A stretch of 64,000 bases of DNA. Source: Streptomyces marispadix. GTDB lineage: Bacteria > Actinomycetota > Actinomycetes > Streptomycetales > Streptomycetaceae. The stretch covers positions 2,046,001-2,110,000 of the forward strand of contig NZ_JAKWJU010000002.1 of the NCBI RefSeq assembly GCF_022524345.1, in the 5' to 3' direction. The number at the start of each line of letters is the position of its first letter. Position 1 is the first letter of the stretch. Positions 8,749-63,973 of this stretch are shown here, piece after piece. The translations under genes and the position numbers were made by a program. Under the pieces are notes generated by a model. It was not told the origin of the DNA. It searched no databases and worked only from the letters and a program-made list of their open reading frames with translations.

Positions 8749-10043
<1,295 letters not shown>

Positions 10044-46240: not shown

Positions 46241-46390
46241 ACGACGCACGCTAAGGCTCCCCGCCTGCGGCGGCACCTGACTTTCGGCCGACTTCGGCGC
46301 CTCCCGGCTCGGCCTTTCGCCCTAGGGCGCGCCGGGGGCCCGGCCGAACGGTGACGGCTGTACGCCCCCGCTTGGGGCACGCTGAGGGGT

Positions 46391-47272: not shown

Positions 47273-47367
47273 GCGCGCCCTCCGCCTGAGCCCCCGTCTC
47301 CGCCGATCGCCCGCGCGGCCACGGCCCCGACTGCACGTCGTGCGGCGCCCGTTCGGCCCGTCGCGCG

Positions 47368-48195: not shown

Positions 48196-48245
48196 AGCAG
48201 AAAACTCTATCCCGCAGGAAGGAATCACGGGCAGTCTGCCGTGGT

Positions 48246-49862
48246 ATGAGCCGCTTCACATCCGCCGCGAACGCTCACGCCGCGCGGCCCGGAGCCACGC
48301 CCTCCGCCGCGCACGGGGCCACGTCCGGGCCCACGCCCTCCGCCTCCTCCCCGGCCTTCCGCAGCGGCGCGACCCTCGTGACCGCGCTGTGCTGGGTCAT
48401 CGTCGTCTTCGACGGCTACGACCTGATCGTCTACGGGACCGTGCTGCCCCGCCTCCTCCAGGAGCCCGGCTGGGAGCTGTCCAAGTCCGGTGCGGGGCTG
48501 CTGGGTTCGCTCGCCTTCGCGGGCATGCTCATCGGGGCCGTGCTCGCGGGCAGGCTCGCCGACCGGTACGGCAGGCGCCGCACGATCCTGGCCTGCACCG
48601 TGTGGTTCTCGGTGTTCACCGCGCTGTGCGCCCTCGCGCCGGGCCCCGCCTCGTTCGGCGTGCTGCGGCTGCTCGCGGGCGTCGGCCTCGGCGGACTGGT
48701 GCCCAGCGCCAACGCCCTTGCCGCCGAGTACGTACGGGCCCGCCACCGCTCCGTCGTCTCCACCCTGATGATGTCCGGCGTGCCCATCGGCGGCGTACTG
48801 GCGTCGGTCACCGGGATGTTCGTGATGCCGCGCTTCGGCTGGCAGGCGATGTTCCTGATCGCGCTGCTCGCGCTGGCCGTCGTAGTGCCGGTGTGCTGGC
48901 GGCTGCTGCCGGAGTCCGCCGTCTGGCTGCGTACGGAGGGCCGCCACGGGGAGGCCGAGCGGCTGGAGCGGCGCTTCGCGCTGCCCGCGGGGGAAAGCGA
49001 GGGCGAAGGCGAGCACGGGGACGGGGACGGTGACGGGCGCGAACACCCCGACCGCGGGCGGTCGTTGAGGTCCCTGCTCCGCGCGCCCTACACCGCCGCG
49101 ACGCTCGTCTTCTCGCTCGCCACGGTCGCCACCCTGTTCGCCTGGTACGGGCTGGCGACCTGGCTGCCGCAGCTCATGGTGGAGACGGGCTTCGATCTCG
49201 GCTCCTCGCTTGCGTTCCTCCTCGCGCTCAGCCTCGGCGCCGTCACCGGCTCGCTGCTCACCGCGTGGGCGGGCACACGTATCGGCCCCGTACCGACGGC
49301 GGTGACCGCTGCGGGACTGGCGGCCGCGGGCCTCGCCGTACTGCTGCTGCATCCGGCGACGTGGATCGCCTACGGGGCGCTGGTCCTGGCGGGTGTCGGC
49401 ACTCACGGAACGCAGTGCCTGATCATCGCCGCGGTCGCCGACCACTATCCGCCCCGACTGCGCGGCAGCGCCCTCGGGTTCTCGCTGGGCTTCGGGCGCA
49501 TCGGTGCCGTGCTCGCACCGCAGACCGGCGGCTGGCTGCTGGCGGCGGGGCTCGGCGTCGACTCCAACTTCCTTGTCTTCGCGCTGGGAGCGGGCTTCGC
49601 GGCGCTGCTGCTCACCGTGCCGCGCGGCTCGTCCGAGAACAGCGGCCCGCCCGAGAACAGCGGTACGTCCGAGAACAGCGGTACGTCCGAGAACAGCGGT
49701 AAGTCCGAGACCCCGGGCCCCGGCGGTCCCATGGCCGCGGACGAGCCCGCACCGGCGGCCCCGCCTCCGGCAGCCGCCCCCGGAAAGCCCGCCCCGAACG
49801 AGCCCGCCCCGAACGAACGCGACTCCAGCACACCAGACCCGAGCGAAGGAGCACCGCAATGA
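48246..49862 (+). CDS. MFS aromatic-acid:H+ symporter (AAHS family)
   Basis: 538 residues. Twelve-helix MFS with the AAHS hallmark first helix containing DGYDLIVYGTVLP, motif A GRLADRYGRRR, and GVGLGGLVPSANALAAEY. Close to PcaK/BenK/MhpT and gentisate transporters; it would import 3-hydroxybenzoate or gentisate. The C-terminal tail is disordered and contains four tandem ENSG(T/P)S units encoded by 18-bp repeats. The stop overlaps the dioxygenase start (ATGA). Confidence 0.88.
   Translation: MSRFTSAANAHAARPGATPSAAHGATSGPTPSASSPAFRSGATLVTALCWVIVVFDGYDLIVYGTVLPRLLQEPGWELSKSGAGLLGSLAFAGMLIGAVLAGRLADRYGRRRTILACTVWFSVFTALCALAPGPASFGVLRLLAGVGLGGLVPSANALAAEYVRARHRSVVSTLMMSGVPIGGVLASVTGMFVMPRFGWQAMFLIALLALAVVVPVCWRLLPESAVWLRTEGRHGEAERLERRFALPAGESEGEGEHGDGDGDGREHPDRGRSLRSLLRAPYTAATLVFSLATVATLFAWYGLATWLPQLMVETGFDLGSSLAFLLALSLGAVTGSLLTAWAGTRIGPVPTAVTAAGLAAAGLAVLLLHPATWIAYGALVLAGVGTHGTQCLIIAAVADHYPPRLRGSALGFSLGFGRIGAVLAPQTGGWLLAAGLGVDSNFLVFALGAGFAALLLTVPRGSSENSGPPENSGTSENSGTSENSGKSETPGPGGPMAADEPAPAAPPPAAAPGKPAPNEPAPNERDSSTPDPSEGAPQ
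49631..49702 (+). repeat. four in-frame 18-bp tandem repeats in the MFS tail
   Basis: Units of 18 bp at 49631, 49649, 49667 and 49685 carry GTCCGAGAACAGCGGTAC with two or three mismatches in the first two. Because 18 is a multiple of three, copy-number change only lengthens or shortens the cytoplasmic tail. Confidence 0.8.
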
Positions 49863-51007
49863 CCACCGCACCGGTGCGCATCACCGCCGCCGAAGGCCCA
49901 GGGCAGCCCGAACGCACCCCCGAACTGGAGGAGTTGTACCGGGGTTTCGAGTCGGAGCTGCTCGTACCGCTGTGGACGGAGATCGGCGACCTGATGCCGC
50001 ACGAGCCGAACTCCCGTGCGCAGGCCCACGCTTGGCGCTGGAGGAATCTGCTGCCGCTGGCCGAACGCGCAGGGCGGCTCGTACCGGTGGGCCGTGGCGG
50101 CGAGCGCCGGGCCATCGCCCTCGCCAACCCCGGCCTGGGCGGCGCCCCGTTCGCCACTCCCACGCTGTGGGCGGCGATCCAGTATCTGGGGCCGCGTGAG
50201 GACGCACCCGTGCACCGCCACACGCAGCACGCCTTCCGCTTCGTCGTCGAGGGCGAGGGCGTCTGGACGGTCGTGGACGGCGATCCGGTGGCCATGCGCC
50301 GGGGCGACTTCCTCCTCACCCCGGGCTGGCATTTCCACGGGCACCACAACCGCAGCGACGCGCCCATGGCGTGGCTCGACGGCCTGGACATACCTCTCTC
50401 GCACTACACCGGTTCCACCTTCTTCGAGTTCGGCCCGGACGAGGTGGGCGACCGCACGGCGCCCGCACGCTCCCGCTCCGAGCAGCTCTGGTCGCACCCG
50501 GGGCTCACGCCGGTCTCGGCCGCCGGGACGCCGCGGCCCAGTTCACCCATCGCCGCCTACCGCTGGGAGCACACCGACCGGGCGCTCGACGACCAACTCG
50601 CCCTGGAGCGGGACGGGTTCGCGGGCGTACTCGAACCGGGCCATGCCGCCGTGCGGTTCACCAACCCCACCACCGGCGGAGATGTGATGCCCACGATCCG
50701 CGCCGAGTTCCACCGGCTGCGCGCGGGCACCGTGACCGCCACACGGCGCGAAGTGGGCTCGTCCGTCTACCAGGTGTTCGACGGCGCCGGCACGGTACGC
50801 GTCGGGGAGCGCGAGTGGACCGTCGCACACGGCGACCTGTTCGCCGTGCCGTCGTGGCAGCCCCTCACGGTGGCCGCGGCGGGCGGCGAAGGGCTCGACC
50901 TCTTCCGTTTCAGCGACACCCCCGTGTTCGACCGGCTCCACCAGTCCCGCGTCCACATCGAGGACACCCCCGTCGAAGACATCCCGTCCGAAGGAGCCGC
51001 ACGTTGA
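49859..51007 (+). CDS. gentisate 1,2-dioxygenase
   Basis: 382 residues with two cupin domains. The Fe(II) ligands of the first are in VHRHTQHAFRFVVEGEG (His119 and His121) and PGWHFHGHHN. The second cupin (SSVYQVFDGAGTVRVGEREW) is degenerate in metal ligands, as in the family. It cleaves gentisate between C1 and C2 to maleylpyruvate. Translationally linked to neighbours by ATGA and TTGA overlaps. Confidence 0.92.
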   Translation: MTTAPVRITAAEGPGQPERTPELEELYRGFESELLVPLWTEIGDLMPHEPNSRAQAHAWRWRNLLPLAERAGRLVPVGRGGERRAIALANPGLGGAPFATPTLWAAIQYLGPREDAPVHRHTQHAFRFVVEGEGVWTVVDGDPVAMRRGDFLLTPGWHFHGHHNRSDAPMAWLDGLDIPLSHYTGSTFFEFGPDEVGDRTAPARSRSEQLWSHPGLTPVSAAGTPRPSSPIAAYRWEHTDRALDDQLALERDGFAGVLEPGHAAVRFTNPTTGGDVMPTIRAEFHRLRAGTVTATRREVGSSVYQVFDGAGTVRVGEREWTVAHGDLFAVPSWQPLTVAAAGGEGLDLFRFSDTPVFDRLHQSRVHIEDTPVEDIPSEGAAR

Positions 51008-51891
51008 AGCTCGCCACCCTCCGCATCAGCGACACCGGGAGCACCGCCGCCGGCGGGGCCGCCCGCCATGGCTCGCGCACCGAGGCCGTACGCGTCGACG
51101 ACGACGGCCACTGCACGGGCCTCGGCTTCGCCGACGTGGGCGAACTCCTCGCCCAGGACGGCTGGTTGGACACCGCGGCGACCGCACGGGCCTCCGGTAC
51201 GCGGCATCCCCTCGACGCCGCCGACCTGGCGCCGGTGGTTCCGCGCCCCGGCAAGGTCGTCTGCGTAGGACTCAACTACCGCAACCACATACTCGAGATG
51301 GGACGCGAACTCCCCGAGCACCCCACGCTGTTCGCCAAGTACGCGGACGCCCTGATCGGTCCTCGCGACACGATCGAACTCGCCGAGGAGTCCCGACAGA
51401 CCGACTGGGAGGCCGAGTTGGCGCTGGTCGTCGGCGAGACCGTGCGCCGCGCCGACGAGGCACGGGCGCGGCGGGCGATCGCCGGATTCACCGTCCTCAA
51501 CGACGTCACCATGCGCGACTGGCAGTACCGCACCAAGCAGTGGCTTCAGGGAAAGACCTTCGAGGCCACCACCCCCGTGGGGCCCTGCCTGGTGACCCCC
51601 GACGAACTGCCCGGCGGCACCGCGCCCGCGCTGACCATGACCTGCTCCGTGGACGACGAGCCGATGCAGAAGGCCGACACGTCCGAACTGGTCTTCAGCC
51701 CCGTGGAGTTGGTCCGCTACGTCTCCACCGTCACCACTCTCCGGCCCGGCGATGTCATCGCCACGGGAACACCGGGCGGCGTCGGCCACGCACGGAAACC
51801 CCCGAGGTATCTCGCCGACGGCTCCCGCCTCGTGACGGAGATCAGCGGCATCGGGCGGCTGGAGAACATCGCGCGGCGGGCAGTCGATTGA
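51004..51891 (+). CDS. fumarylacetoacetate hydrolase family, fumarylpyruvate hydrolase
   Basis: 295 residues with an unusual TTG start at 51004, overlapping the dioxygenase stop (TTGA) and preceded by GAAGGA. FAH-fold motifs: VCVGLNYRNHILEMG, ALIGPRDTIEL, DWEAELALVVGE and NDVTMRDWQYR, TFEATTPVGPCLVT, with the C-terminal GDVIATGTPGGVGHAR. Because a maleylpyruvate isomerase follows, hydrolysis of fumarylpyruvate to fumarate and pyruvate is the likely reaction. Confidence 0.9.
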   Translation: MKLATLRISDTGSTAAGGAARHGSRTEAVRVDDDGHCTGLGFADVGELLAQDGWLDTAATARASGTRHPLDAADLAPVVPRPGKVVCVGLNYRNHILEMGRELPEHPTLFAKYADALIGPRDTIELAEESRQTDWEAELALVVGETVRRADEARARRAIAGFTVLNDVTMRDWQYRTKQWLQGKTFEATTPVGPCLVTPDELPGGTAPALTMTCSVDDEPMQKADTSELVFSPVELVRYVSTVTTLRPGDVIATGTPGGVGHARKPPRYLADGSRLVTEISGIGRLENIARRAVD

Positions 51892-52568
51892 CCGCGCGCA
51901 GCACACGGGACCCGGCGGGCAGGGCGAACTCACCCGCGCCGCACCGCACTTCACATCCGCCGGACGACTCGCCCCGCACTTCGTCGGTACGGCACTGGAT
52001 GGACGACGGCACCGGCCGGTTCCTCGCCGCCGTGAACGCCCTGCCCGACAGCGGCTTCGGCGCGCCCACGGCGCTTCCCGGCTGGACGCGTGCCCATCTC
52101 GTAGCGCACGTCCACCACAACGCGGAGGCGCTGATGCGGCTGCTCCACTGGGCCCGTACGGGCGAGCGGACCCCGATGTACGCGAGCGCCGGCCAGCGCC
52201 GGGCCGAGATCGAGGAGGGCGCGCTCCTCCCGGCGCCCCGGCTGCGCACCCTCGTACACGACTCGGCCGTCGAACTGGCCTCGGCCGTCGACGGACTGCC
52301 GGACGGTGCCTGGGACAACGAGGTCGTCACGGCACAGGGCCGTACCGTCCCGGCGCGCGAGGTGCTGTGGATGCGGACACGTGAAGTGGCGGTGCACGCG
52401 GTCGACTTGGAGGCCGGTACGGGCTTCGCGGACCTGCCCGCCGGCCTCAACGCGGCCCTGGCGGCGGACGCCGCACGCAAGCACGCGAACGGCGGCGACG
52501 GCGCCGCGGTCGCCGCCTGGCTGACGGGCCGCACGGCCGAGGCGCCACGTCTCGGTCCATGGCTGTAG
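51888..52568 (+). CDS. mycothiol-dependent maleylpyruvate isomerase
   Basis: About 226 residues if the TTG at 51888 (overlapping the previous stop, TTGA) is used; an ATG at 51999 gives 189 and would leave only a few residues before the domain. The MDMPI N-terminal domain has FLAAVNALPDSGFG, ALPGWTRAHLVAHVHHNAEAL with its metal His residues, and LHWARTGERTPMY; the C-terminal part has LWMRTREVAVHAVDL. It isomerises maleylpyruvate to fumarylpyruvate using mycothiol, an actinobacterial cofactor. Confidence 0.88.
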   Translation: MTARSTRDPAGRANSPAPHRTSHPPDDSPRTSSVRHWMDDGTGRFLAAVNALPDSGFGAPTALPGWTRAHLVAHVHHNAEALMRLLHWARTGERTPMYASAGQRRAEIEEGALLPAPRLRTLVHDSAVELASAVDGLPDGAWDNEVVTAQGRTVPAREVLWMRTREVAVHAVDLEAGTGFADLPAGLNAALAADAARKHANGGDGAAVAAWLTGRTAEAPRLGPWL

Positions 52569-52670
52569 GCGGAGCCGTGGCGGCAGCAAGGGGAGGACAG
52601 CGAACCGTGAACCACGTGAACAGCGCCGGCAACGACAGCCGGCGAATCGGCCGAATCCGCGAAGCCGGAC

Positions 52671-53849
52671 GTGGACGTCGTCATCGCGGGCGGCGGCATC
52701 GCCGGGCTCGGGAACGCCTACGCGCTCGCCACAGCGGGGCACCGCGTCCGCGTGCTGGAGCGAGCCCCGGACTTCACCGAGATCGGCGCCGGGCTGCAAC
52801 TCGCGCCCAACGCGACGCGTGTGCTGCGTGGTTGGGGCCTGCTGGACGAGGTCGTCGAACTGGGCGTGCTGCCGCGCCGACTGGTCTTCCGCGACATGCT
52901 CGACGGCACCCCGCTGACCCGTCTCGATCTGGACGACGTCTTCGAGGCCCGCTACGGAGCACCGTATGTGCTGATCCACCGCAGCGACCTGCTCCGTGTG
53001 CTCGTCTCGGCGTGCGAGCGCGCGGGCGTCGACCTCGTGCCCGATCACGACGTCGTCGGCGTGGAGACGGACGGCGACCGTGCCGTCGTGCACACGGCAG
53101 GCGTCCGTGCCCGCCACCGCGCCCAAGTCGCCCTGGCCGCCGACGGGTTGCGCTCCCGGCTGCGCGCACGCATCAGCGATGACGAGCCGGTCCCCTCCGG
53201 TTATGTCGCCTACCGGGGGGCGTTCCCCGTGGCCGAGGTCGCCGGGCGGCTCGGCGAGGACGCCCTTCGCGACGTCGTCGTCCATATCGGCCCCGGCTGC
53301 CATCTGGTGCAGTACCCGCTGCGCTCGGGGGAGATCTTCAACACCGTCGCCGTCTTCGCCTCGCCCGGCTTCCGGCGGGGAGAGAGCGACTGGGGCGGCC
53401 CCGACGAACTCGACGCGGCGTTCGCCGACGCCTGCGAGGAGGCGCAGCGCGGCCTGAAGTCCCTCTGGCGCGACCGCCGTTGGCCCATGTACGACCGTGA
53501 GCCCATCCCCAGGTGGGTCGACGGCCGGCTCGCCCTCACCGGCGACGCCGCCCATCCCATGCTCCAGTACCTCGCGCAGGGCGCGTGCCAGGCGCTGGAG
53601 GACGCGGAGTGCCTGGCGGCCCGGACCGTGAAGTACCGGGCGCCGGGCGGCGGTTGCGACTGGCCGGGTGCCCTGCGCGAATACGAGGCGGCACGTACGG
53701 CCCGTACCGCCGAAGTGCAGTACGCGGCCAGGGTGTGGGGTGAGACCTGGCACGTCGACGGCTTCGCCCGCACCCTGCGCAACACCCTTTTCCGCGACCG
53801 CGATCCGGCGGACTTCCGCCACGTCGACTGGCTCTACGCCGCCCCATAG
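52671..53849 (+). CDS. FAD monooxygenase, likely 3-hydroxybenzoate 6-hydroxylase
   Basis: 392 residues from a GTG at 52671; an in-frame stop precedes it closely. N-terminal Rossmann motif VVIAGGGIAGLGNAYALA, DG motif (LAADGLRSRLR) and GDAAHPMLQYLAQGACQALEDA. It belongs to the class A flavin hydroxylases. Placement after gentisate dioxygenase, FAH hydrolase and isomerase argues for hydroxylation of 3-hydroxybenzoate to gentisate, though salicylate hydroxylases look alike. The gene is 102 bp behind the isomerase. Confidence 0.85.
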   Translation: MDVVIAGGGIAGLGNAYALATAGHRVRVLERAPDFTEIGAGLQLAPNATRVLRGWGLLDEVVELGVLPRRLVFRDMLDGTPLTRLDLDDVFEARYGAPYVLIHRSDLLRVLVSACERAGVDLVPDHDVVGVETDGDRAVVHTAGVRARHRAQVALAADGLRSRLRARISDDEPVPSGYVAYRGAFPVAEVAGRLGEDALRDVVVHIGPGCHLVQYPLRSGEIFNTVAVFASPGFRRGESDWGGPDELDAAFADACEEAQRGLKSLWRDRRWPMYDREPIPRWVDGRLALTGDAAHPMLQYLAQGACQALEDAECLAARTVKYRAPGGGCDWPGALREYEAARTARTAEVQYAARVWGETWHVDGFARTLRNTLFRDRDPADFRHVDWLYAAP

Positions 53850-53858
53850 AATCCCCCC

Positions 53859-54197
53859 ATGGCGTTGAACGGGGAGCGACGGCCGATCGAACTGTCAGAG
53901 CTGGTACGGCAGTTGCGTACGGAACTGAAAGCCGCGGCGGCGGAGGGCGCGGACGCGGGCGAGTCGCTCCAGTTCGAGCTGGGCCCGGTGGAGATCGAGG
54001 CGACCGTGGCCGCGGGTCGTGATCTGGGGGCCAACGGCAAGGTGCGCTTCTGGGTCGTCGAGGCGGGCGGCGACGCCAGGTTCAACCGCTCGGAGACCCA
54101 GCGGATCACGCTCACGCTGCACCCGAAGGGCGTGCGCCCCGACGGTACGGCGTACTCACCGCGCATCTCCGGCGACCGGCTCCATGGCGAACGCTGA
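53859..54197 (+). CDS. Trypco2 (trypsin-co-occurring) domain protein
   Basis: 112 residues: IELSELVRQLRTELKAA (helix), LQFELGPVEIEATVAAGRD (strands), GKVRFWVVEAGGDARF and SETQRITLTLHPKG, the alpha-beta-sandwich signature of Trypco2. Such small proteins occur beside trypsin-NTPase fusions in conflict systems of multicellular actinobacteria. It overlaps the next gene by 14 bp. It is 9 bp after the monooxygenase stop, so it may be cotranscribed with the gentisate operon. Confidence 0.85.
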   Translation: MALNGERRPIELSELVRQLRTELKAAAAEGADAGESLQFELGPVEIEATVAAGRDLGANGKVRFWVVEAGGDARFNRSETQRITLTLHPKGVRPDGTAYSPRISGDRLHGER

Positions 54198-57100
54198 GCC
54201 CGCCGAGCGCCCCGCGCCCGACGGCGACCGCCCCTGGACCGAGCTGCCCAACGGCCGCACCGCCGAGATCATCGTCAGCAGACAGGACGGCGGCCAGGGC
54301 CGCGGCTCGGGCCATCTGGTCGCCTCCGGCGTGGTGTTGACGTGCGCACATGTCGTCCAGGGCGCCTCCAGCGTCCAGGTACGGTTCAACGCCGAACGCG
54401 AGCAGGAGCGGAAGTTCGAGGCGTCTACTGCCTGGGACCACTCGGGCATCGACGTAGCCGTCCTCACCTTCGAGCCCGGCGGAGACCGCGCCGAGCCCCA
54501 CGAGTCGCATGAGCCCCGGGAACCCCATGAGCCCGGCGAGCCCGGTGATCCCCGCGCGTCCCGCGAGACCGGCCCGCAGGTACGGCCCGAGTCGTTCGCC
54601 CGCATCGGCGACCAGGCCGTACGGCTGGGCTGCGAGGCGAAGGGCTTCCCGCTGTTCAAGTACCGCCCGCCGCCGGAGGGCCCGCTCCGCGACGTCGCGC
54701 ACATACAGGCCGAGTGCGTACCGCACGCCAACTCCCGTACACGCACGCTGGAGTTGGAGGTCGTACCGGCCCCGGACCCGGCCGCGGACCCCCGCCCGCC
54801 GGAAGACCGCGAAGGCCGGTACATGCCGTGGTCGGGCATGTCGGGCGCGGTGGTCTTCAGCGGCGGCCGGATCATCGGCGTGGTCACCGAACACCACCCC
54901 GCCGAGGGAGGCCGCCTCACCGCGAGCCGCGTCGACACCTGGAAGCAACTCGTCGCCGACGACGACCGGTTCAGGCACCTGGAGGAGCTGCTCGGCAGCG
55001 GCAGCCTCGACCCGGCGGCGCTGCCCGACGCGGCGGCGCCCCCGGTGCACCTCCCCGAAGGCGTACGCACACACCGCCAGGAGCTGGCGAACGGCATCAA
55101 CCAGCGCAAGTACCTCACGAATCGCCAAGTGCCGTTCGTCAGCCCGGGAGAGACCCACGAGGCCGACCCGGAGAACCTTCTCGACCGGCTCTCGGCGATG
55201 TCCACACCGGGTTCGAGGCCCGGGGACCTGGGAGTGGTGCTGGTCGGCGCCGCCGGCAGCGGCAAGACGCGTACCTGCTTCGAAGTGGCGGAGAAGGCCC
55301 ACGAGCGCGGCTGGTCCGTGCTGCACGTCGGACGGGAAGCGACCGCCTCAGCGGAGGAGCTGGCCGACGCCGTCGCCGCGCTCCACTCGCGCGGCGAGGA
55401 CGTCCTGCTCGTGCTGGACTACCTGGACCGCTACACCGACCTCGACCACGACTTCGCCAACAAGGTCGAGGACCGGCGCACTTCGCGGGCGCGGCTGGCG
55501 TGCATCGCCTCGCTCCGCCCCGGCGCGGTGCAGAACGTGGAGGACCGCGAGCAGCTGCGGCTCTTCGAGACGATCGAGGTCTGCCAGGAGGAGTCCCATC
55601 AGCAGAGCGTGACCCGCGGCATCGTGGCGAAGGCCGCACCCGCCGCCGTCTACGCCTACGGCACCGACGAGGTCGCGGCCGTCTGCGGCACCCGGCCCGT
55701 GCTCGCTCTGCTCATCGCGAGAGCCATCGAGTACCGCGTCCTCGACGGCGAGGAGGACGTGCTGCCGCTGCCCGGTCTGCGCAACGACCGCGACCTGTCG
55801 TACTGGCTGAAGCAGCGGACCCGTGAGGACTTCGGAGACGCCCGTACGGGACTGCTGGCGTCCGCCGTGGCGGCCGCGGCCTGCACACAGCACTCCGACG
55901 CCGTGCACGACGCCGTGGCCGCGTTCCTCGAACGCCACGGCGACCGGGACTTCACCGGCGGCGACGTCGGAGTCGTAGGGCATCTGCGAGACCTGGGCTG
56001 GCTGCTCGAATCGGACGGCGAACTCGACGTCCTCCACGACTTCGTCGCCGACGAACTCCTTCAGCAGGCGCTGCTGCCGACCAGGACGCGGCTCGAAGGC
56101 GCCACGGCCGCCACGATGTTCTCGGCCTTCCTCGTCTCCCTGCGCACCTTCCGTCTCGCCGCCGGCCACATACGCCGCTGGAGCACCGACCTCGAAACAG
56201 GCAAACGAGAGGACGTACGGCGGGTCTGCGACAACTGGCTGCGAAGGGAGGGCGCCGAGGCCCTTGCCCGACTCGCCGCCGACGAGGCGGACTTGGCGGA
56301 GAGCGGCCGGATGCTGCTGGCCCTGCTGTCGGGGCCGCCATGGCAGTCCGGAGCGGTCGCCGCGTGGGACAGGCTCGTCACGCCCTGGCTGAAGAGGGCC
56401 GAAGACGCCGAGTACGCGGAGGAAGGCGCAGCGCACCTCGCGCACACCTTCCTCGCCGACGCCGTGCGCAACACCTCCGACTCCGTGCCCGAACGCCTCT
56501 CCGCGGCCGCCCTCACCTGGACCGAGGAGCACCCGGACCGGCGCCGCGAGACCCGTACCGTCCTCGAAGCGCTGCTACGGGCGCCCGGCCTGTGCGCGGA
56601 CCACCGGGCCGAGGCCGCACGCCGGGCCGTGGACTGGCTCGGCGCACACGGCACGACCTGGGCCGCCCGCCCCCTCGCGCTCACCGAGACGCTTCTCACC
56701 CGTGACGACCTGCCCGAGGGCACCGCCGAGGAAGCGGTACGCAGGGGCCTGGACGTCGCCGAGTCGCACCTTCCGGTGCCCGCCACGGCACATGTGCTGG
56801 ACGCCGTGCTGCGCGTCTCGCGCCGTCCCGCTCTCCAACCGGGGCCGCGCGAACGGGTGTTGGTCCTCGCCCTCAGATGGGTCAGACGCCATCCCGGCTC
56901 GGACGCCGCCTCCTTCGTGCTCGCTCCGCTGCTCCAGCAGCCCGACCTGGACGACGCCCGTACGCAGGCCGTCTTCGACCGTTCCCTGGACTGGCTCGGC
57001 GACCGCCGCACAGCGCCCCTGGCCACCTTCGTACTGCGGCATCTGCTCAAACACCCCGCGCTGACCGGGAAACGGCTCGGCAACGCGACCGGCATCGCGA

Positions 57101-58890
57101 TGGACTGGCTCGCCGAGCGGGGCGGGGACCGCTACGCGACGTTCCTGCTGACGCCTCTCCTGCTGCGCTCCGACCACGGGCAGGACACCGGCACGCTCGT
57201 CGCCCTCGGACTGGACTGGCTGAAGGCCCACCACCACCGCGAGGAAGCACACTTCCTGCTGCGCGCCGTACTGGAACAGCCCCGACTGCCCGAAGGCGCA
57301 CCGGAGTCGGCGGCGGCATACGCGAGGGCCTGGCTGGGCAAGGACGACCACGGCGTCACCGAGAACGCCAGGTCCGTGCTCTCACCGCTGCTGAAGCGCC
57401 GCGAGCTCTCCCACACCTACGACCACTGCGCCGCCGCCCTCCGCTGGCTCGGCGTGGAGGCCAACCTCGGCTCGGAGCAGGCGAGTTTCGTACTCGGTCC
57501 CCTGCTGAACCATCCCGCGCTCGGCCCGCACACCCGGGATGCGGGCAAGATCGCCCTCCGCTGGCTGGACCGTCATCCGCAGTCCGAGAACGTGTCGTAC
57601 GTACTCGGGCCGCTGCTGTCGCTGTACGGCTTCGACGGGGACTGCGAGGGAGAGCGGGCCGGGGGGCGGGACGGCGAGCCGGGCGCTGTGGGCCGGGGCG
57701 CCGAGGCGACGGGCGTGCGCGGGGGCGCCGAGGCGGGCGGCGTGGGCCGGGGCGCCGAGGCGGTCAGTGTGCGCCGGGGCGCCGAGGCGGGCGGCGGGGC
57801 CGACCCGGTCGCCCTGGGCTTCGACTGGCTTGCGGGGCACGGCACTTCACCGGCGGCACGCTTCGTACTGGCGCCTCTGCTGCGCCCGGACCGGGCGGGA
57901 GCGCGGGCGGCTCCATCGGCCCTCGCCTGGCTCGGCACCGGCGACAACAGCACGCTCAACGACGCCCTCTACGTCCTGGAGCGGCTGCTGACATGCCCGG
58001 GGCTGGACTCGGACCTCACCTCCGAGGCAGTCGCCCATGCGCTCGACTGGCTCGACGTCCACCACGCCTCGCCGGGCGCCCTGCGGGTACGTGAACCGCT
58101 GCTGCGCGGCCCGCTCACCGAACTGCCGCTGCGGGACCGCACGGTGACGCGAGTCCTGGACTGTGCGGGGCACGGCCACCTGTCGTTGTCGGGCTCGATT
58201 CTGCGGCGCCTGCTCGACCTGGGCCCCCTGTCTCCCGGACCGGCCGCCGCCCTCGCCCGGTCGGCGTGGGAGCGAGCCGACGCACAGGCGAGCAAGGGGG
58301 CCCTCGAGACGCTGGCGTGGGCCCTGGGGCGCGACGACGTCCCCTCCGACGCCTTGGAGAAGCTCGCCGACCTGGCGCTGCAACGGCTCGACGGCGACCA
58401 GTTGCTGAGCAACTCCCGTACGAAGCTGCTGAGGGCCCTGCTGAGCCGTACCGACCTGGACGCCACACGGTCCGCCGAAGCCGTGTCCCGGGCGCTGGCG
58501 TGGCTGGACGCGCGGGGCGACGTCTCCTTCGCGGGCGTGATCCTGGGGCTGCTGCTCCGGCGCCGGGACGTCATCGGTCGTACGGGGCCGCCGGGCACAG
58601 AAGCCGCCCCCGGCGCCGAAGGCGGCCACCACGCCGAAGGTGGCCCCGGCCGACTGGTCGCAACGGCCTTCGAATGGCTCGGCGTTCACGCCACGCACCC
58701 CTACGCGGCGGACGTCCTCTGCGGGCTGCTCGAAGCGTCCACTACGGGCGGGAGTGAGCGCCGAGGGGTCCTGACGAGCGAGCAGGAGGCCGAGTGCGTA
58801 CGCCTGGCCCGCGCCTGGTTCGAGGAGGCGGACCTTCAAGACCGGCCCGCCGGACGGCGGTTGGCGGAGCTGATGGGAGGGCGGGGGTAG
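54184..58890 (+). CDS. trypsin-like protease/STAND-like NTPase/helical-repeat giant protein
   Basis: 1568 residues. Residues 25-250: trypsin-like domain with His56 (VLTCAHVVQG), Asp90 (SGIDVAVLTF) and Ser220 (WSGMSGAVVF). Residues 345-700: P-loop NTPase with Walker A GAAGSGKT (355-362) and Walker B DVLLVLDYLDRY (from 406). Residues ~775-1560: roughly 18-20 helical repeats of 36-40 residues with the pattern (A/L)xWLxxH..SxxAxFVLxPLLxxPxL, as in RRHPGSDAASFVLAPLL. Protease, switch-like ATPase and repeat sensor in one chain resemble NLR-like proteins. Nine-residue tandem units (GAEAxGV) interrupt the repeats near 1170-1205. Confidence 0.88.
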   Translation: MANAEPAERPAPDGDRPWTELPNGRTAEIIVSRQDGGQGRGSGHLVASGVVLTCAHVVQGASSVQVRFNAEREQERKFEASTAWDHSGIDVAVLTFEPGGDRAEPHESHEPREPHEPGEPGDPRASRETGPQVRPESFARIGDQAVRLGCEAKGFPLFKYRPPPEGPLRDVAHIQAECVPHANSRTRTLELEVVPAPDPAADPRPPEDREGRYMPWSGMSGAVVFSGGRIIGVVTEHHPAEGGRLTASRVDTWKQLVADDDRFRHLEELLGSGSLDPAALPDAAAPPVHLPEGVRTHRQELANGINQRKYLTNRQVPFVSPGETHEADPENLLDRLSAMSTPGSRPGDLGVVLVGAAGSGKTRTCFEVAEKAHERGWSVLHVGREATASAEELADAVAALHSRGEDVLLVLDYLDRYTDLDHDFANKVEDRRTSRARLACIASLRPGAVQNVEDREQLRLFETIEVCQEESHQQSVTRGIVAKAAPAAVYAYGTDEVAAVCGTRPVLALLIARAIEYRVLDGEEDVLPLPGLRNDRDLSYWLKQRTREDFGDARTGLLASAVAAAACTQHSDAVHDAVAAFLERHGDRDFTGGDVGVVGHLRDLGWLLESDGELDVLHDFVADELLQQALLPTRTRLEGATAATMFSAFLVSLRTFRLAAGHIRRWSTDLETGKREDVRRVCDNWLRREGAEALARLAADEADLAESGRMLLALLSGPPWQSGAVAAWDRLVTPWLKRAEDAEYAEEGAAHLAHTFLADAVRNTSDSVPERLSAAALTWTEEHPDRRRETRTVLEALLRAPGLCADHRAEAARRAVDWLGAHGTTWAARPLALTETLLTRDDLPEGTAEEAVRRGLDVAESHLPVPATAHVLDAVLRVSRRPALQPGPRERVLVLALRWVRRHPGSDAASFVLAPLLQQPDLDDARTQAVFDRSLDWLGDRRTAPLATFVLRHLLKHPALTGKRLGNATGIAMDWLAERGGDRYATFLLTPLLLRSDHGQDTGTLVALGLDWLKAHHHREEAHFLLRAVLEQPRLPEGAPESAAAYARAWLGKDDHGVTENARSVLSPLLKRRELSHTYDHCAAALRWLGVEANLGSEQASFVLGPLLNHPALGPHTRDAGKIALRWLDRHPQSENVSYVLGPLLSLYGFDGDCEGERAGGRDGEPGAVGRGAEATGVRGGAEAGGVGRGAEAVSVRRGAEAGGGADPVALGFDWLAGHGTSPAARFVLAPLLRPDRAGARAAPSALAWLGTGDNSTLNDALYVLERLLTCPGLDSDLTSEAVAHALDWLDVHHASPGALRVREPLLRGPLTELPLRDRTVTRVLDCAGHGHLSLSGSILRRLLDLGPLSPGPAAALARSAWERADAQASKGALETLAWALGRDDVPSDALEKLADLALQRLDGDQLLSNSRTKLLRALLSRTDLDATRSAEAVSRALAWLDARGDVSFAGVILGLLLRRRDVIGRTGPPGTEAAPGAEGGHHAEGGPGRLVATAFEWLGVHATHPYAADVLCGLLEASTTGGSERRGVLTSEQEAECVRLARAWFEEADLQDRPAGRRLAELMGGRG
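57691..57798 (+). repeat. four 27-bp in-frame tandem repeats inside the NTPase gene
   Basis: Units start at 57691, 57718, 57745 and 57772; each encodes (G/R)RGAEAxxV. They form a flexible Gly/Ala linker between helical repeats. Copy-number change would be in frame. Confidence 0.85.
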
Positions 58891-58974
58891 GGCGTACGGC
58901 ACGGCGGGTGCGCGGGGCGCGGCGGGCGTCGGGGCGCCGTGCGCACCTGGGTACTCCCGGGCCGGGTCCCGGGG

Positions 58975-59457
58975 TCAGATCCCGGGGTCGAAGTCGCTCA
59001 CCAGGGCCCGTGCGCGGACCAGTTGCTCGTCCGGCATCGGACACGACCGGCGGGACTTCGTATCGAAGTGGACGCCGGTCAGCACCGTGACGGCGGCGAC
59101 CTCCCCGGTGGCGACGTTCTCCATCCGATGACAGAAGCGGATCACCTTCTCCCGCACCTCCAGCAGCGCCGACCGCACCGCGACCACGTCCCCCGCCAGC
59201 AACTCCCGCTGGTAGCTGATCCGTTGGTCGACGGCGACCATGCCATGGCCGCTGCCGCGCAGATACTCGGGCGTCACTCCGAAGCCCGCGAAGAGCTGCC
59301 ATGTGGCCTCGTCGAACTTCCCCACGTACCACATGACGTTCATGTGCCCCATCTGGTCGCAGTGCCAGGGGTAGACCGTCCCGCGGTACGTCTCCACCCA
59401 CCCCGCAGTCGCATCCGCGGCATCGGCGGCGGCATCGACTGCCTCCTCGGCGGCCAT
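58975..59457 (-). CDS. hotdog-fold acyl-CoA thioesterase
   Basis: 160 residues; start at ATG 59457 (59493 possible). The 4-hydroxybenzoyl-CoA-thioesterase-like signature is PWHCDQMGHMNVMWYVGKFDEA (as two pieces) with Asp in the catalytic position, then VDQRISYQRELLAGD and AVTVLTGVHFDTKSRRS. Hydrolyses an acyl-CoA of unknown chain; could serve aromatic catabolism, but it lies outside the gentisate operon. Confidence 0.85.
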   Translation of the reverse strand: MAAEEAVDAAADAADATAGWVETYRGTVYPWHCDQMGHMNVMWYVGKFDEATWQLFAGFGVTPEYLRGSGHGMVAVDQRISYQRELLAGDVVAVRSALLEVREKVIRFCHRMENVATGEVAAVTVLTGVHFDTKSRRSCPMPDEQLVRARALVSDFDPGI

Positions 59458-59820
59458 GGCCTCGTCTCCCTCGCTCGCCCCCGGTACGTGCATGTACGTC
59501 CCGTGCCCGCACGGCACGTTAGCCGACGTTAACCGCAGCAGGCGAGGCTTGCCGCGCCGGCCGGAGCATCCGCCCGCCCGGGGCACGCCCCGGCGGCTCC
59601 TCGCGAGACGGGAACAAGCCGGGCACCGTATGAGTAAGCCCCTCCCCGGTTCATACGGTGCCCACATCGCCGGAGGCCGCGCCCGCGCTGAGCCCCGCCT
59701 CCGGCCCCGGCCGCCCTCCCGAAAACCCCTGGCAGGCGCTGCCGCGCACGGCTACCGTCCGGGCAAAGGACACAGAGCGTGGCCCCGCGGAGGTCCATGC
59801 GGACCAGGGGAGGCCAAAGG
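59458..59820. other. divergent intergenic region with a perfect 13-bp inverted repeat
   Basis: 363 bp between divergent thioesterase and HAD genes. GGGCACCGTATGA (59621-59633) and TCATACGGTGCCC (59651-59663) are perfect complements over a 17-nt spacer. Because it is between divergent genes it is not an ordinary terminator of either; it could end a short unannotated RNA or be an operator. GGAGG near 59807 serves the HAD gene. Confidence 0.65.
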
Positions 59821-60513
59821 GTGAGGCACGAACGCCAAGTGCTCGTCTTCGACGCGGACGACACGCTGTGGGAGAACAACGTCCTCTTCGAGCGGGTCAT
59901 CGAGGACTTCCTGGACTGGCTGGCACACCCCACCCTCGACAAGCGCCAACTGCGCGCCGTGCTCGACGACATCGAGCGGGCCAACACCGTCGCACACGGC
60001 TACGGCACACAGTCACTGCTGCGCAGCCTCGGCGACTGCGTGGAGCGTCTGCGCAGCCGCCCGGCGACAGCACAGGAGCACGAAGAGATCAAGGAGCTGG
60101 CCGCGGCGCTCATCGACCACCAGGTGGAGCTGATCCCGGGAGTCGCCGAAACCCTCACCGCACTCCGCGACCGGCACGACCTCCTGCTGCTCACCAAGGG
60201 CGACCCGGACGAGCAGCAACGCAAGATCGACATGTCACAACTGGGCCACCACTTCCGGGAGATCGGCATAGTCCCGGAGAAGAACGACGCGACGTACCGC
60301 AGCTTCATCGACACCCACGGCCTCACACCGTCCACGAGCTGGATGATCGGCAACTCCCCGAAGTCGGACATCCTCCCCGCCCGCCAGGTCGGCATGAACG
60401 CCGTCTTCATCCCCAACCCCCACACCTGGGTCCTGGAGCACGACGAACTCGACCCGGCCGACAACCAGGTCCTGCACCTTCAGACCTTCCGCGAACTGAC
60501 GAACCACTTCTGA
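59821..60513 (+). CDS. HAD-superfamily hydrolase
   Basis: 230 residues from GTG at 59821. Motif I VLVFDADDTLWEN (Asp11, Asp13), motif II LLLLTKGDP, and motif III/IV WMIGNSPKSDILPA. A phosphatase of the class I cap type; specificity cannot be told. Overlaps nothing, followed by a GNAT gene after 137 bp. Confidence 0.85.
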   Translation: MRHERQVLVFDADDTLWENNVLFERVIEDFLDWLAHPTLDKRQLRAVLDDIERANTVAHGYGTQSLLRSLGDCVERLRSRPATAQEHEEIKELAAALIDHQVELIPGVAETLTALRDRHDLLLLTKGDPDEQQRKIDMSQLGHHFREIGIVPEKNDATYRSFIDTHGLTPSTSWMIGNSPKSDILPARQVGMNAVFIPNPHTWVLEHDELDPADNQVLHLQTFRELTNHF

Positions 60514-60650
60514 GGCGCGAGGTGTCCGAGGATCGGGCTCACGGCCTACGGATCACTGGGCACGGGTCACGGGTCACAGCCCACGGATGGAGTGTGGGCA
60601 CCGGGGCGAACTGACCGCGCCGGTGCGCTGAACTCCCGTTTGGAGGAACG

Positions 60651-61244
60651 ATGTTCGCGATAACCCTGGGCGACGACGCCGAACTCCGCCCCCTCGAACC
60701 ATGGCAGGCCGAGGAGTTCCTGGCCCACATGGACCGCGGACGGGAGTTCATCGGGCAGCACATCGGCCTGCCCGACGCCGTCCCGGACCTGGAGTCCGCC
60801 CGCGCCTACCTCCAGTCGTACGCGGACAAGGCCGCATCCGACACCGGCCGCATCTACGGCATCTGGAAGAACGCCACCCTGGTCGGCGGCGTCCTCTTCC
60901 GTACCATGGACGTCCCCCAAGGCACCGCCGAGGCAGGCTGCTGGCTGGAACCCTCGGCCACGGGCAAGGGCCTCGTGACCCGCGCTTCACGCATCATCAT
61001 CGACTGGGCTGTGCGGGAACGCGGCATCCACCGCATCGAATGGATCACCTCCTCCGAGAACGCCCCCAGCATCGCCGTCGCCCGCCGCCTGGGCATGACG
61101 CAGGACGGCGTCCTCCGCGAGAGCTACCCGTACCGGGGAAAGCGCCGCGACATGGAGATCTGGTCGGTGCTGGGCCCGGAGTGGCGAGAGCGGCGGGCAG
61201 CGCAGCGAGCGGCGTCCGGCACGGTCGCCCCCAACGAGCGCTGA
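60651..61244 (+). CDS. GNAT-family N-acetyltransferase (RimJ/RimL type)
   Basis: 197 residues with GGAGG before the ATG. AELRPLEPWQAEEFLAHMDR-like start, then GYWLEPSA-type region WLEPSATGKGLVTRASRIII, RIEWITSSENAPSIAVARRL and GKRRDMEIWSVLGPEW. Acetylates a protein N terminus or small amine. Confidence 0.87.
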   Translation: MFAITLGDDAELRPLEPWQAEEFLAHMDRGREFIGQHIGLPDAVPDLESARAYLQSYADKAASDTGRIYGIWKNATLVGGVLFRTMDVPQGTAEAGCWLEPSATGKGLVTRASRIIIDWAVRERGIHRIEWITSSENAPSIAVARRLGMTQDGVLRESYPYRGKRRDMEIWSVLGPEWRERRAAQRAASGTVAPNER

Positions 61245-61317
61245 GCGCCGACGACTTCACGAACGCGCGCACCTTGGGGGCCGGGGGATGGCGGCCGGAC
61301 CTCCGCTGCGCCCTCGC

Positions 61318-62742
61318 TCAGTTATCCGACTCCTCGACATGATGGCCGGGGCGCTCGCTCTGTACGCCCCTCTCGTCCTGCGTACGCGAGGAGTAAGGGT
61401 CATCCGTACGCCGGGAGTACTTGGTGGGACCACCGGGACGCACGGGCCGCCCCAGGGCGCCGGCAGCCAGCGGACCGTCGCCCTCCCGGCCCCGCTCGCC
61501 CGCCAACGCGCCGCCACGGCTGAAGTGCAGGGCCCGGCCTCCCTGTTGGGTTCCCGTCTCTCCCCGCTGCGCGATGTGGTCGAGGTTGCCGCCTATGCCT
61601 TGGCGCGCGGACGGCACCGACGGCGTCGACGGCCTACGACCGGCGGCGGCGTCCATGGCCCTGCCACCGCTCCCTGCGGATACCCCCGGCACGGCACCGG
61701 CACCGGCACCGAGACCACCTGGCACCGCGCCTCCGGCGCCCCGGCTCGCGCCCACGCCTGAACCGGGCGCGGGACCGCCACCCATGACCCCGCCCCCGGG
61801 CACGCCCGAACCCGTAATCCCCGAAGAACGAGGCGGCACTTCCCCTCCCTGCGGGCGCGGAGCGTTCGCTGTCCCGCCCGAGATGCCGTCGACTCTGATG
61901 GCGGCGGCTTGATTTGCGGCAGAGCCGGACTGCTCCGGCATGGGCACGCTCCTCCCGACCACGGGCCCGCCGCTCCCTGCCGCACCGACGATCACTGCCC
62001 CGTCGGCCCGTCGGCCGAGGCTCACCGGACCGGAGACGGGAGCGACACCCCCGGGCTCTCCGGGATAGTCACCCCCGTCGCCCCCCTGCCCGGGCGGCAG
62101 CTTCATCTGCCACGAATTCATCGCCTGCGTCTGCGAGTTGTACGTAAGAGCCAGCTCCACCATCAGGGCCACTGCCTTGGACCGGTCGTCCTTGCCCGCC
62201 GGGAGGCCGGGATCGCCGTCGTCCGGAGCCCTCCGCTCGCCCAGGTCCCCCCGGAATCCGGGGTCCAGCCTGCCGCCGCCGCGCGAAAAGGCACCGCCGA
62301 TCCGGTTGACGGCGTCCCCGAAGCTGCGGCGCTTCCCCAGCGCCTCGATCTTCGGCTTGATCTCGCTGAGCCGCTCGCCCGCGTTGCGCATCGCGGTCGC
62401 GATGTAACGCGCGTACGTACCGCAGTCGCCGAGCTGCTTGCTGACCTTGCCCGCTTCCCTGGCGAACGCTTCGGCGGCCTCGCCCTCCCAGTGCTGAAGC
62501 AGATTCCGCACGGTCCGGTCGAAGTCGCCCTTGACGCTGCCGCCGCCGTGCACCAGGAGATCGTGGATGTTCTCCCATTCCTCGGCGACGTTCAGGACCA
62601 GCTCAGGCTTGGCGTCGACCACCATGGCCTTCATCGACTCCAGGTCCTCACCCGTGGCGAACGGGGTCTTGACCTCACCCGCGTAGTACGTCCCACCCGA
62701 GTCCCCGTACTCCCCGCCGATTCCAGCCTGTCCGCCGTCCAT
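61318..62742 (-). CDS. WXG100-like domain protein with long Gly-rich tail
   Basis: 474 residues. Residues 40-160 are helical with HWEG (Trp85-Gly87) between two helices, the WXG turn of type VII secretion substrates. Residues 250-474 are Gly/Pro/Ala/Ser-rich, PPE/toxin-linker-like, ending in basic and polar residues. Starts 24 bp after the stop of the small WXG-like gene 62767-63099, so they form an operon. Likely an exported structural or effector protein. Confidence 0.75.
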   Translation of the reverse strand: MDGGQAGIGGEYGDSGGTYYAGEVKTPFATGEDLESMKAMVVDAKPELVLNVAEEWENIHDLLVHGGGSVKGDFDRTVRNLLQHWEGEAAEAFAREAGKVSKQLGDCGTYARYIATAMRNAGERLSEIKPKIEALGKRRSFGDAVNRIGGAFSRGGGRLDPGFRGDLGERRAPDDGDPGLPAGKDDRSKAVALMVELALTYNSQTQAMNSWQMKLPPGQGGDGGDYPGEPGGVAPVSGPVSLGRRADGAVIVGAAGSGGPVVGRSVPMPEQSGSAANQAAAIRVDGISGGTANAPRPQGGEVPPRSSGITGSGVPGGGVMGGGPAPGSGVGASRGAGGAVPGGLGAGAGAVPGVSAGSGGRAMDAAAGRRPSTPSVPSARQGIGGNLDHIAQRGETGTQQGGRALHFSRGGALAGERGREGDGPLAAGALGRPVRPGGPTKYSRRTDDPYSSRTQDERGVQSERPGHHVEESDN

Positions 62743-62766
62743 CTCGCACTCGCCCCCGACCGCTCG

Positions 62767-63099
62767 CTACTCCCCGGCCCCTGAACGAGCGCCGTTCATG
62801 CCGTTCTTCGCCTCGTACTCGGCGTTCTGATAGTTGCCGTGCACGATCTTCGTCTTCGTACCGAAGTCGTCGATCGCATCGTTGATGACGCGGATGATCT
62901 CCTCGATGTGGGCCTTCATCTGCCGGTGCGCGGAGGTCAGTTCGGTGCTCTCGACGAACCGGTGACTCCCGAGCGCCCCGTCGGGAAGGTAGGTGTTGTA
63001 CTTGCTCTTGGTCACCGACTCGCCCATGGCGGTCGTCAGACGACCGAGCTTGCGCACCGTCTCCTCGAGTTCGCTGAGATCGACTCGCGTCCCACGCAC
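62767..63099 (-). CDS. small helical protein, ESX-type partner
   Basis: 110 residues from GTG at 63099 (GGAGG nine bases upstream). LSELEETVRKLGRLTTAMGE and MKAHIEEIIRVINDAIDDFG are amphipathic helices separated by a loop; the end (NAEYEAKNGMNG) may carry the YxxxE-like secretion signal. First gene of the pair with the WXG100-like protein. Confidence 0.7.
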   Translation of the reverse strand: MRGTRVDLSELEETVRKLGRLTTAMGESVTKSKYNTYLPDGALGSHRFVESTELTSAHRQMKAHIEEIIRVINDAIDDFGTKTKIVHGNYQNAEYEAKNGMNGARSGAGE

Positions 63100-63682
63100 C
63101 GACTGCGTCCTCCCCCGTCCCGATTCGACGCGTACGTACGGCAGTCGCGGCCTGCCCCGGCAGTGCCCCGCCCGGCGAGCACCGTCACTTCGCGGGTGCC
63201 GTACGTGTTTCTCCACACCCTAATGAGGACCACTGACAGCCCGTCAGTTCGCTGCTCGCACGCACCCCACCGCGCACGGAACCCGGCCCTACGGACGGTT
63301 CTCCCGTCACCCTGCGTCGATCTGCCCCGCAATCGAGAAACGGACTCCAGTCCTACGGAGCGAGGCACACAAACGCCGTACGCCACACCCGAGTCGCCCC
63401 GCACGGTGACACAGGATCGTGATACGCACCCTTGAGTCGCATACGAGATCTCCGCACAAACTCCACGCGGGAAATGCGAGCACCTCCACGGCAGAGGCCC
63501 GCCGCTGATGCCGAATGCGGCTCAGCAAAGCGGGAGTCGGAGACGCCGGTCAGGTCCGTCCCACAGCGATGAATGCGAACGGCCGGGGCCCGAAGGGCAC
63601 TTGATGACATGGCAGCCCCCTCATGTAGCGTCGTGAGCCGATGTCTTGATCACACGGGCAGCGACAACGGGGAGAGCACGCG
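63100..63682. other. 583-bp divergent intergenic region
   Basis: Between the two divergent WXG100-like operons. No convincing gene. A possible promoter for the rightward operon is TTGATG (63601) with TAGCGT or TGTAGC near 63624-63631. Nothing else stands out. Confidence 0.4.
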
Positions 63683-63973
63683 GTGAGTGAAGAGTTCCGG
63701 ATAGACGTCCCGCGCGTCGAGAAGATGGTGGACAAGCTCGGCGAATCCACCGAGCGGATGCAGCAGGCGCGGACCCGGCTCAAGAAGGTCGGCCCGAAGA
63801 CCCTCGGCACCGAGGGCCTCGACGAAGCGTGCGACACCTTCCAGTCGGAGTGGGAGGACGGCATCAAACGCATCGAGGACAGCGCCAAGGACATAAAGGA
63901 CCGGCTCAAGACGACCGTCGACGCCTACAAGGCCGGCGAGGAAAAAGAAGCCAAGACGTACGGGCAAGGCTGA
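63683..63973 (+). CDS. WXG100-like protein
   Basis: 96 residues from GTG at 63683. Two helices around a Trp-Glu-Asp-Gly turn (FQSEWEDGIKRIED), similar to WXG100 proteins but with an extra residue in the turn; the C-terminal helix is Lys/Glu-rich. The next gene begins 18 bp later, so it probably heads a type VII-related operon that runs off the window. Confidence 0.75.
   Translation: MSEEFRIDVPRVEKMVDKLGESTERMQQARTRLKKVGPKTLGTEGLDEACDTFQSEWEDGIKRIEDSAKDIKDRLKTTVDAYKAGEEKEAKTYGQG

Follow-up and report, generated by a model that had tools for sequence, protein, structure and literature searches.

Why would Streptomyces marispadix carry, immediately behind a catabolic operon, a large protein that joins a trypsin domain to a nucleotide-binding switch and an array of helical repeats, and why does a small gene overlap it? 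The pair occupies positions 53859 to 58890 of the window, the 64,000-nucleotide stretch of contig NZ_JAKWJU010000002.1 analyzed here, and consists of a gene for the domain Trypco2 followed by a gene for a trypsin-STAND NTPase-repeat protein. A sequence-only reading had proposed a conflict or surveillance module. The two-gene STAND-protease module is real and conserved, the comparisons below support the proposal, and no computable result overturned it. A role in surveillance or conflict is probable.

An overlapping gene pair with an intact protease and a STAND-type NTPase

The Trypco2 gene (53859..54197, plus strand, 112 aa) starts with ATG at 53859 and stops at 54195-54197. Its product matches the full PF19631 profile (positions 1-78, 89.5 bits against a cut-off of 24.2, E = 1.7e-25), and this 78-position domain is all that Pfam recognizes in it; an enzyme domain was not found. 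Against solved structures no convincing relative was obtained (best E 0.1), and the AlphaFold2 (AF2) model, with a predicted local distance difference test score (pLDDT) of 59 and a predicted template modeling (TM) score of 0.42, was too poor to be used for a fold search. The C-terminal GER of Trypco2 was considered as a functional tag and rejected, being frequent in close relatives and missing from most loci. The overlap with the large gene, already seen in the sequence-only reading, measures 14 bp (54184..54197, plus strand) and may couple the translation of the two genes.

The large gene (54184..58890, plus strand) encodes 1568 aa in an uninterrupted frame of 1568 codons with the stop at 58888-58890. 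The mechanical open reading frame (ORF) begins with GTG at 54019; the ATG at 54184 was chosen because the resulting MANAE start is common to several homologues. Since full-length homologues of the protein reach E = 0 and three family models each find one site among the window ORFs of at least 60 aa, the gene pair is not a product of chance.

The HtrA-like trypsin domain comprises residues 25-270 (54256..54993, plus strand). Its predicted triad was confirmed at the codon level as H56 (CAT, 54349-54351), D90 (GAC, 54451-54453) and S220 (TCG, 54841-54843), and these residues, like the Walker A lysine of the NTPase, are invariant in 15/15 aligned homologues. The Trypsin_2 profile matches with 30.4 bits (cut-off 27.6) and a fold test returned an HtrA-like trypsin fold; the VIA-align list consisted of trypsin folds throughout and was uninformative on the NTPase or the repeats. 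With its triad intact, the domain is predicted to be proteolytically active.

The P-loop NTPase joined to the trypsin, also anticipated, spans residues 329-520 (55168..55743, plus strand; delimited by PF25199 and the AF2 model), with the Walker A motif GAAGSGKT (355-362), the Walker B motif VLLVLDYLD (407-415) and R445; K361, D412 and R445 are kept in 28/28 aligned rows. The match to nSTAND_NTPase5 (PF25199) is marginal, with 34.1 bits at a cut-off of 34.0. Profile and fold, with Avs3 the top structural match by E-value, place the domain among STAND NTPases rather than in a housekeeping family. Residues 538-618 (55795..56037, plus strand) form helices and two short strands in the AF2 secondary structure, which we read as a winged helix. 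Alpha-helical WL repeats with a period of about 38 aa follow over residues 770-1517 (56491..58734, plus strand) and constitute the proposed sensor arm; they are helical in the AF2 model, which covers the protein up to residue 1150. The earlier count of about 20 repeats is a fair reading in that the span has room for about 20 units, but only 15 were detected at domain E ≤ 1 and 14 at E ≤ 0.01. Both marks of a STAND protein, a winged helix after the NTPase (predicted) and C-terminal superstructure-forming repeats, were thus found. A 27/54-bp minisatellite, located with Tandem Repeats Finder (57663..57802, plus strand), keeps the frame open, inserts a segment rich in Gly, Ala and Glu into the repeat array and is a possible site of length change.

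One NTPase-repeat core with exchanged N-termini and partner genes

A scan of the GTDB representatives with the family alignment yielded 27 other actinobacterial loci, from Streptomyces (20), Actinomadura (2), Amycolatopsis (2), Saccharothrix, Lentzea and Paractinoplanes (1 each); no relatives were obtained when the single protein served as the query. NTPase and repeat models match in 27/27 loci, the NTPase by construction as the loci were found via two of its motifs, and the number of repeat units per locus ranges from 5 to 34. The trypsin type of the window protein is present in 18 of the 27 loci and Trypco2 lies directly upstream in 17 of these 18, so that the co-conservation of the two genes, which had been named as a test, was observed. 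In the 18th locus (L007:5458-10008), a His replaces the catalytic Asp90, a GvpL/F gas-vesicle gene lies upstream and Trypco2 was not found; neither there nor in any of the nine remaining loci did the Trypco2 model match even at E 10.

Other N-termini accompany the core in most of the remaining loci. Two of them (L011 and L018) carry a second trypsin type beside Trypco1 (PF19493, 70.8 and 62.5 bits), in L018 with trypsin and NTPase in different frames. Neither Trypco2 nor Trypco1 was found in the other seven, with a Trypco1 model made of the two sequences from L011 and L018, which matches these seeds alone across 48 loci and could let a distant Trypco1 escape. The N-terminus of L029 is a caspase (PF00656 with 27.2 bits, PADLOC caspase with 45.3), and the ORF upstream has alpha/beta-hydrolase matches below the Pfam cut-offs (15.0 and 14.6 bits). 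For the N-terminus of L024, the Mrr-like match was weak and did not reach the cut-off (15.1 bits), and LmuA matched with 21.6 bits. L023, L025, L026 and L028 have in common an N-terminus of about 200 aa (about 9330-9930) with invariant Cys89 and His121, and an upstream gene for an LCAT/PGAP1 hydrolase. The same NTPase-repeat core therefore takes different effectors, and the partner gene changes along with them.

By eye, the N-terminus common to these four loci resembled a transglutaminase-type peptidase, possibly a cysteine peptidase acting as effector; Pfam and the PDB gave no match and the assignment is not claimed. In the repeat array of L025, adjacent units, compared by eye, seem almost the same, as recently duplicated units would be. 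The Paractinoplanes locus L020 (9309-9863 and 9806-15022) has 34 repeat units, no nameable fused N-terminal domain and a small ORF directly upstream.

Trypco2 next to trypsins on other sensor platforms

Of 61 genomes drawn from the genus, S. marispadix included, 44 carry Trypco2. The 14-kb neighborhoods of 20 Trypco2 genes were taken from 20 of the 44 genomes, each with a high-scoring single copy and with S. marispadix left out; one higher-ranked copy near a contig start (G011) was skipped. An adjacent trypsin match was found in 18/20 loci, one of them a 101-aa fragment (L057), by an in-house model that had been retrained on matches in these same loci (60 rows finally). In L072 this model missed a trypsin that Pfam detects (Trypsin_2, 38.2 bits). 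L074 has no adjacent trypsin; the neighbor carries VMAP-C and EAD2, and a trypsin-EAD2 gene (217 bits, H, D and S motifs by eye) is located about 8 kb from Trypco2 in the same genome. Gene order varies, with Trypco2 and trypsin divergent in L058, L059 and L072.

The proteins carrying the trypsin near the sampled Trypco2 genes include NACHT, TPR, nSTAND5-like and PknG-like kinase-TPR proteins as well as VMAP proteins. Pfam was run on 16 of the 20 neighbor proteins (L056, L057, L058 and L068 were not among them), and the nSTAND5-like matches of L064, L069 and L071 are below its cut-off. A second module lies in the S. marispadix genome itself (L032:6037-10201, about 5.464-5.468 Mb of G000:C2, minus strand), with a 1238-aa trypsin-NACHT protein and Trypco2 downstream.

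All 37 aligned trypsins paired with Trypco2 keep H-D-S. Trypco2 and trypsin distances were correlated over 37 loci (Mantel test, r = 0.88, permutation p 2e-4); L057, L074 and duplicate loci of the own genome were left out, and the L072 trypsin, noticed in the ORF list and confirmed by Pfam, was included manually. For the 458 pairs whose platform labels, which are coarse, differ, r was 0.61 (permutation p 2e-4). As a control, 918,183 bases of 48 loci contained 40 trypsin ORFs, 36 of them less than 1 kb from Trypco2, which is not a genome-wide rate as these loci were picked by NTPase or Trypco2. The four trypsins away from Trypco2 were those of L007, L011 and L018 and the second trypsin of L010. 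Taken together, the comparisons suggest that Trypco2 belongs to the trypsin and not to the platform carrying it.

Evolutionary rates along the module

Ratios of nonsynonymous to synonymous substitution rates (dN/dS) were determined against the syntenic copy of Streptomyces sp. HNM0575 (L003) and against WMMB 322 (L004). Compared with HNM0575, four neighboring genes gave 0.13-0.29, Trypco2 0.39 and the trypsin 0.63; the NTPase gave 0.32, the following region 0.35, the proximal repeats 0.43 and the distal repeats 0.66. Compared with WMMB 322, three neighbors gave 0.20-0.30, the NTPase 0.31, the next region 0.30, the trypsin 0.55, the proximal repeats 0.47 and the distal repeats 0.57. The synonymous rate dS was 0.28-0.51 in the neighbors, Trypco2, the trypsin and the NTPase, and alignment error contributes to the rates of the distal repeats because dS there was 0.66-0.82. 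A conserved switch flanked by two fast ends would fit the pattern of an arms race.

Relation to known conflict and defense systems

The names Trypco1 and Trypco2 date from 2020 and derive from gene neighborhoods, and the literature found, seen in part, reports no experiment on either domain. In the available text of Kaur et al. 2020 (PMC7159879), VMAP (vWA-MoxR) ternary conflict systems often have an N-terminal trypsin with Trypco1 or Trypco2, the two being mutually exclusive, and the caspase N-terminus of VMAP proteins is accompanied by an alpha/beta-hydrolase neighbor. The trypsin paired with a Trypco partner follows this rule here on a different core, and the caspase-hydrolase pairing is seen in one locus (L029) with weak matches. 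The window protein differs in having no VMAP-C (Pfam, E ≤ 10) and a core of STAND NTPase and WL repeats; VMAP-C copies of the same genome lie outside the window at about 1.46 and 4.65 Mb. MoxR and vWA were not found among the 14 neighbor ORFs scanned (44486 to 63973), and membership in the VMAP systems was rejected on these grounds.

According to the available part of Tuck et al. 2025 (PMC12799240), trypsins fused to HamA or present in Avs1b cleave and activate a pro-nuclease whose gene is adjacent; activation by the HamA trypsin requires oligomerization. The window protein resembles the AVAST type I pair Avs1a/Avs1b, as far as described there, in that a trypsin is fused to a STAND NTPase and the gene of the partner lies just upstream; it differs in the partner, which is Trypco2 and not a metallo-β-lactamase (MBL) pro-nuclease. 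The PADLOC model of Avs1b matches the trypsin part only (positions 15-79 of 1924, 11.8 bits), and among the 14 neighbors no MBL fold or Avs1a was found, the upstream genes being Trypco2 and a flavin adenine dinucleotide (FAD) monooxygenase. With neither an upstream MBL pro-nuclease nor a full-length Avs1b match, AVAST type I membership was rejected. PADLOC reports no system match for the module.

Avs3 proteins have the order effector, NTPase, repeats. The window protein has the same order, with the difference that its effector is a protease and that it carries WL repeats of 38 aa. Avs3 bound to phage terminase (8dgc) was the top Foldseek match by E-value (2.3e-6, 1196 columns, 11% identity). 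The trypsin-NACHT module of L032 is similar in its N-terminal trypsin (in-house model; Pfam lists none at E ≤ 0.01), its NTPase (NACHT, 96.4 bits) and the adjacent Trypco2, and differs in having NACHT rather than nSTAND5, a C-terminus that is leucine-rich by eye, and Trypco2 downstream. In the sources as available, the parts and their pairing are already known from VMAP systems and AVAST; a core family of nSTAND5 and WL repeats and a coupling of trypsin to Trypco2 independent of the platform were not found described there.

Genomic neighborhood and distribution

The four-gene catabolic operon (49859..53849, plus strand; cupin dioxygenase-like, FAA hydrolase, MDMPI_N and FAD monooxygenase genes by Pfam) ends with the FAD-monooxygenase gene (PF01494) at 53849, 9 bases ahead of the Trypco2 ATG. 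The distance given in the sequence-only reading is therefore correct, but the location is clade-specific and is no evidence of a functional link. The operon also adjoins the module in HNM0575, whereas in WMMB 322 none of its four genes was found in the 10 kb upstream and the common genes lie on the other side of the module (thioesterase, HAD and GNAT). The site is thus old in one clade, and a functional tie to the operon as a general feature was rejected. The 9-bp gap is probably incidental, and read-through expression from the operon is possible. Of 199 genomes of the genus, S. marispadix included, 16 have the NTPase family at E ≤ 1e-30 in a search with a 300-aa query piece and 11 candidates scored per listed genome.

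Farther downstream (61318-63973), a Gly/Pro-rich 474-aa ORF and small genes are WXG100/ESX-like in appearance; Pfam gave no match for the 474-aa ORF, and the ORF at 63683-63973 has a WXG100 match below cut-off (19.6 of 27.3 bits).

Proposed function and alternative explanations

As a whole explanation, a two-gene STAND surveillance module resembling nucleotide-binding leucine-rich repeat receptors (NLRs) or Avs proteins is favored with moderate confidence. The superhelix of 38-aa repeats would bind a ligand derived from an invader or from stress, upon which the core of NTPase and winged helix, judging from its fold, would exchange nucleotide and oligomerize. Clustering would activate the HtrA-like protease at the N-terminus, which by sequence has a complete triad, and the activated protease may cut a limited set of cell proteins and cause growth stop or cell death. 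The roles of the repeats as sensor and the protease as effector, as first suggested from the sequence, are supported because the effector swap and the dN/dS gradient fit them. A role in phage defense is putative and has no direct support.

Trypco2, encoded first, would bind the protease domain and not the sensor or the NTPase, as co-occurrence and co-divergence suggest, and a direct partnership with the trypsin is rather likely. For its role in that partnership, holding or gating the protease before activation is the foremost candidate, itself tentative; serving as first substrate is less likely, and as an adaptor less likely still. If Trypco2 is a substrate, its cleavage could free or unmask a signal or effector, by analogy with the MBL pro-nucleases cut by Avs1b and HamA trypsins. 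The substrate role is favored by the upstream adjacent position of Trypco2, as in the nuclease-protease pairs in the available part of Tuck et al. (PMC12799240), by its co-divergence with the trypsin and by its absence from L007, where the catalytic Asp is lost. On the other side, Pfam sees only the Trypco2 domain, the best structural match is unconvincing, no cut site could be shown and gene order is variable, with the divergent and downstream arrangements described above, which leaves the substrate role rather improbable.

An intracellular protease of development or stress response, whose repeat arm scaffolds a fixed cellular partner in differentiation or protein quality control with no invader involved, would agree with the HtrA-like fold, with the location common to two strains among ordinary genes and outside any defense island, and with the tie of such systems to a multicellular habit in the text available from Kaur et al. 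(PMC7159879). It is unlikely given the presence of the NTPase family in just 16/199 genomes, distal repeats at 0.57-0.66 versus 0.13-0.30 in the neighbors and the replacement of the N-terminus by caspase and other domains. The fast change may also mark a decaying or idle pair that has lost constraint, as dN/dS values up to 0.66 and the minisatellite in the repeat array would allow; the uninterrupted 1568-codon frame, the invariance of the triad and of the Walker A lysine in 15/15 homologues and the NTPase dN/dS of 0.31-0.32 make this quite improbable.

Several observations weigh against a surveillance module with Trypco2 as the trypsin's partner. High dN/dS could reflect relaxed constraint. 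The PF25199 match exceeds its cut-off by just 0.1 bit, and the Avs3 match has a TM score of 0.12. The 14 neighbor ORFs, picked by eye, are metabolic, transport, regulatory or unassigned and do not form a defense island, and the module behaves like a resident gene because it is syntenic in HNM0575. Pfam finds no trypsin in L069, L071 and L073, where the in-house model alone gives 138-176 bits. Shared history explains part of the correlation of r 0.88, because Trypco2 and trypsin distances each track the platform as well, if less closely (r 0.34 and 0.37, p 2e-4), and the Mantel test ignores species relatedness. The locus with an inactivated protease, L007, is a single case; the poor AF2 model of Trypco2 (pLDDT 59) does not allow its interface with the trypsin to be examined; and no phage, toxicity or protease assay of the module was found in the literature.

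A more far-reaching idea, to be held only tentatively, extends the surveillance module to a portable effector cassette: the trypsin-Trypco2 pair would be mounted on at least five platforms (nSTAND5-WL repeat, NACHT, TPR, kinase-TPR and VMAP/EAD), with Trypco2 dedicated to a single class of immune trypsins as gate, client or first substrate. The comparisons predict that the target of Trypco2 is a trypsin domain with catalytic activity, whichever sensor bears it. If true, the cassette would represent a second way of pairing a protease with a partner, in addition to that of the MBL pro-nucleases, and the nSTAND5-WL-repeat proteins would form a sensor family missing from present catalogs, one that accepts trypsin, caspase and other effectors along with the partner genes that match them. 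This would also account for a partner gene carried by 44 of the 61 genomes examined in the genus and reveal how an immune protease is kept in check in bacteria.

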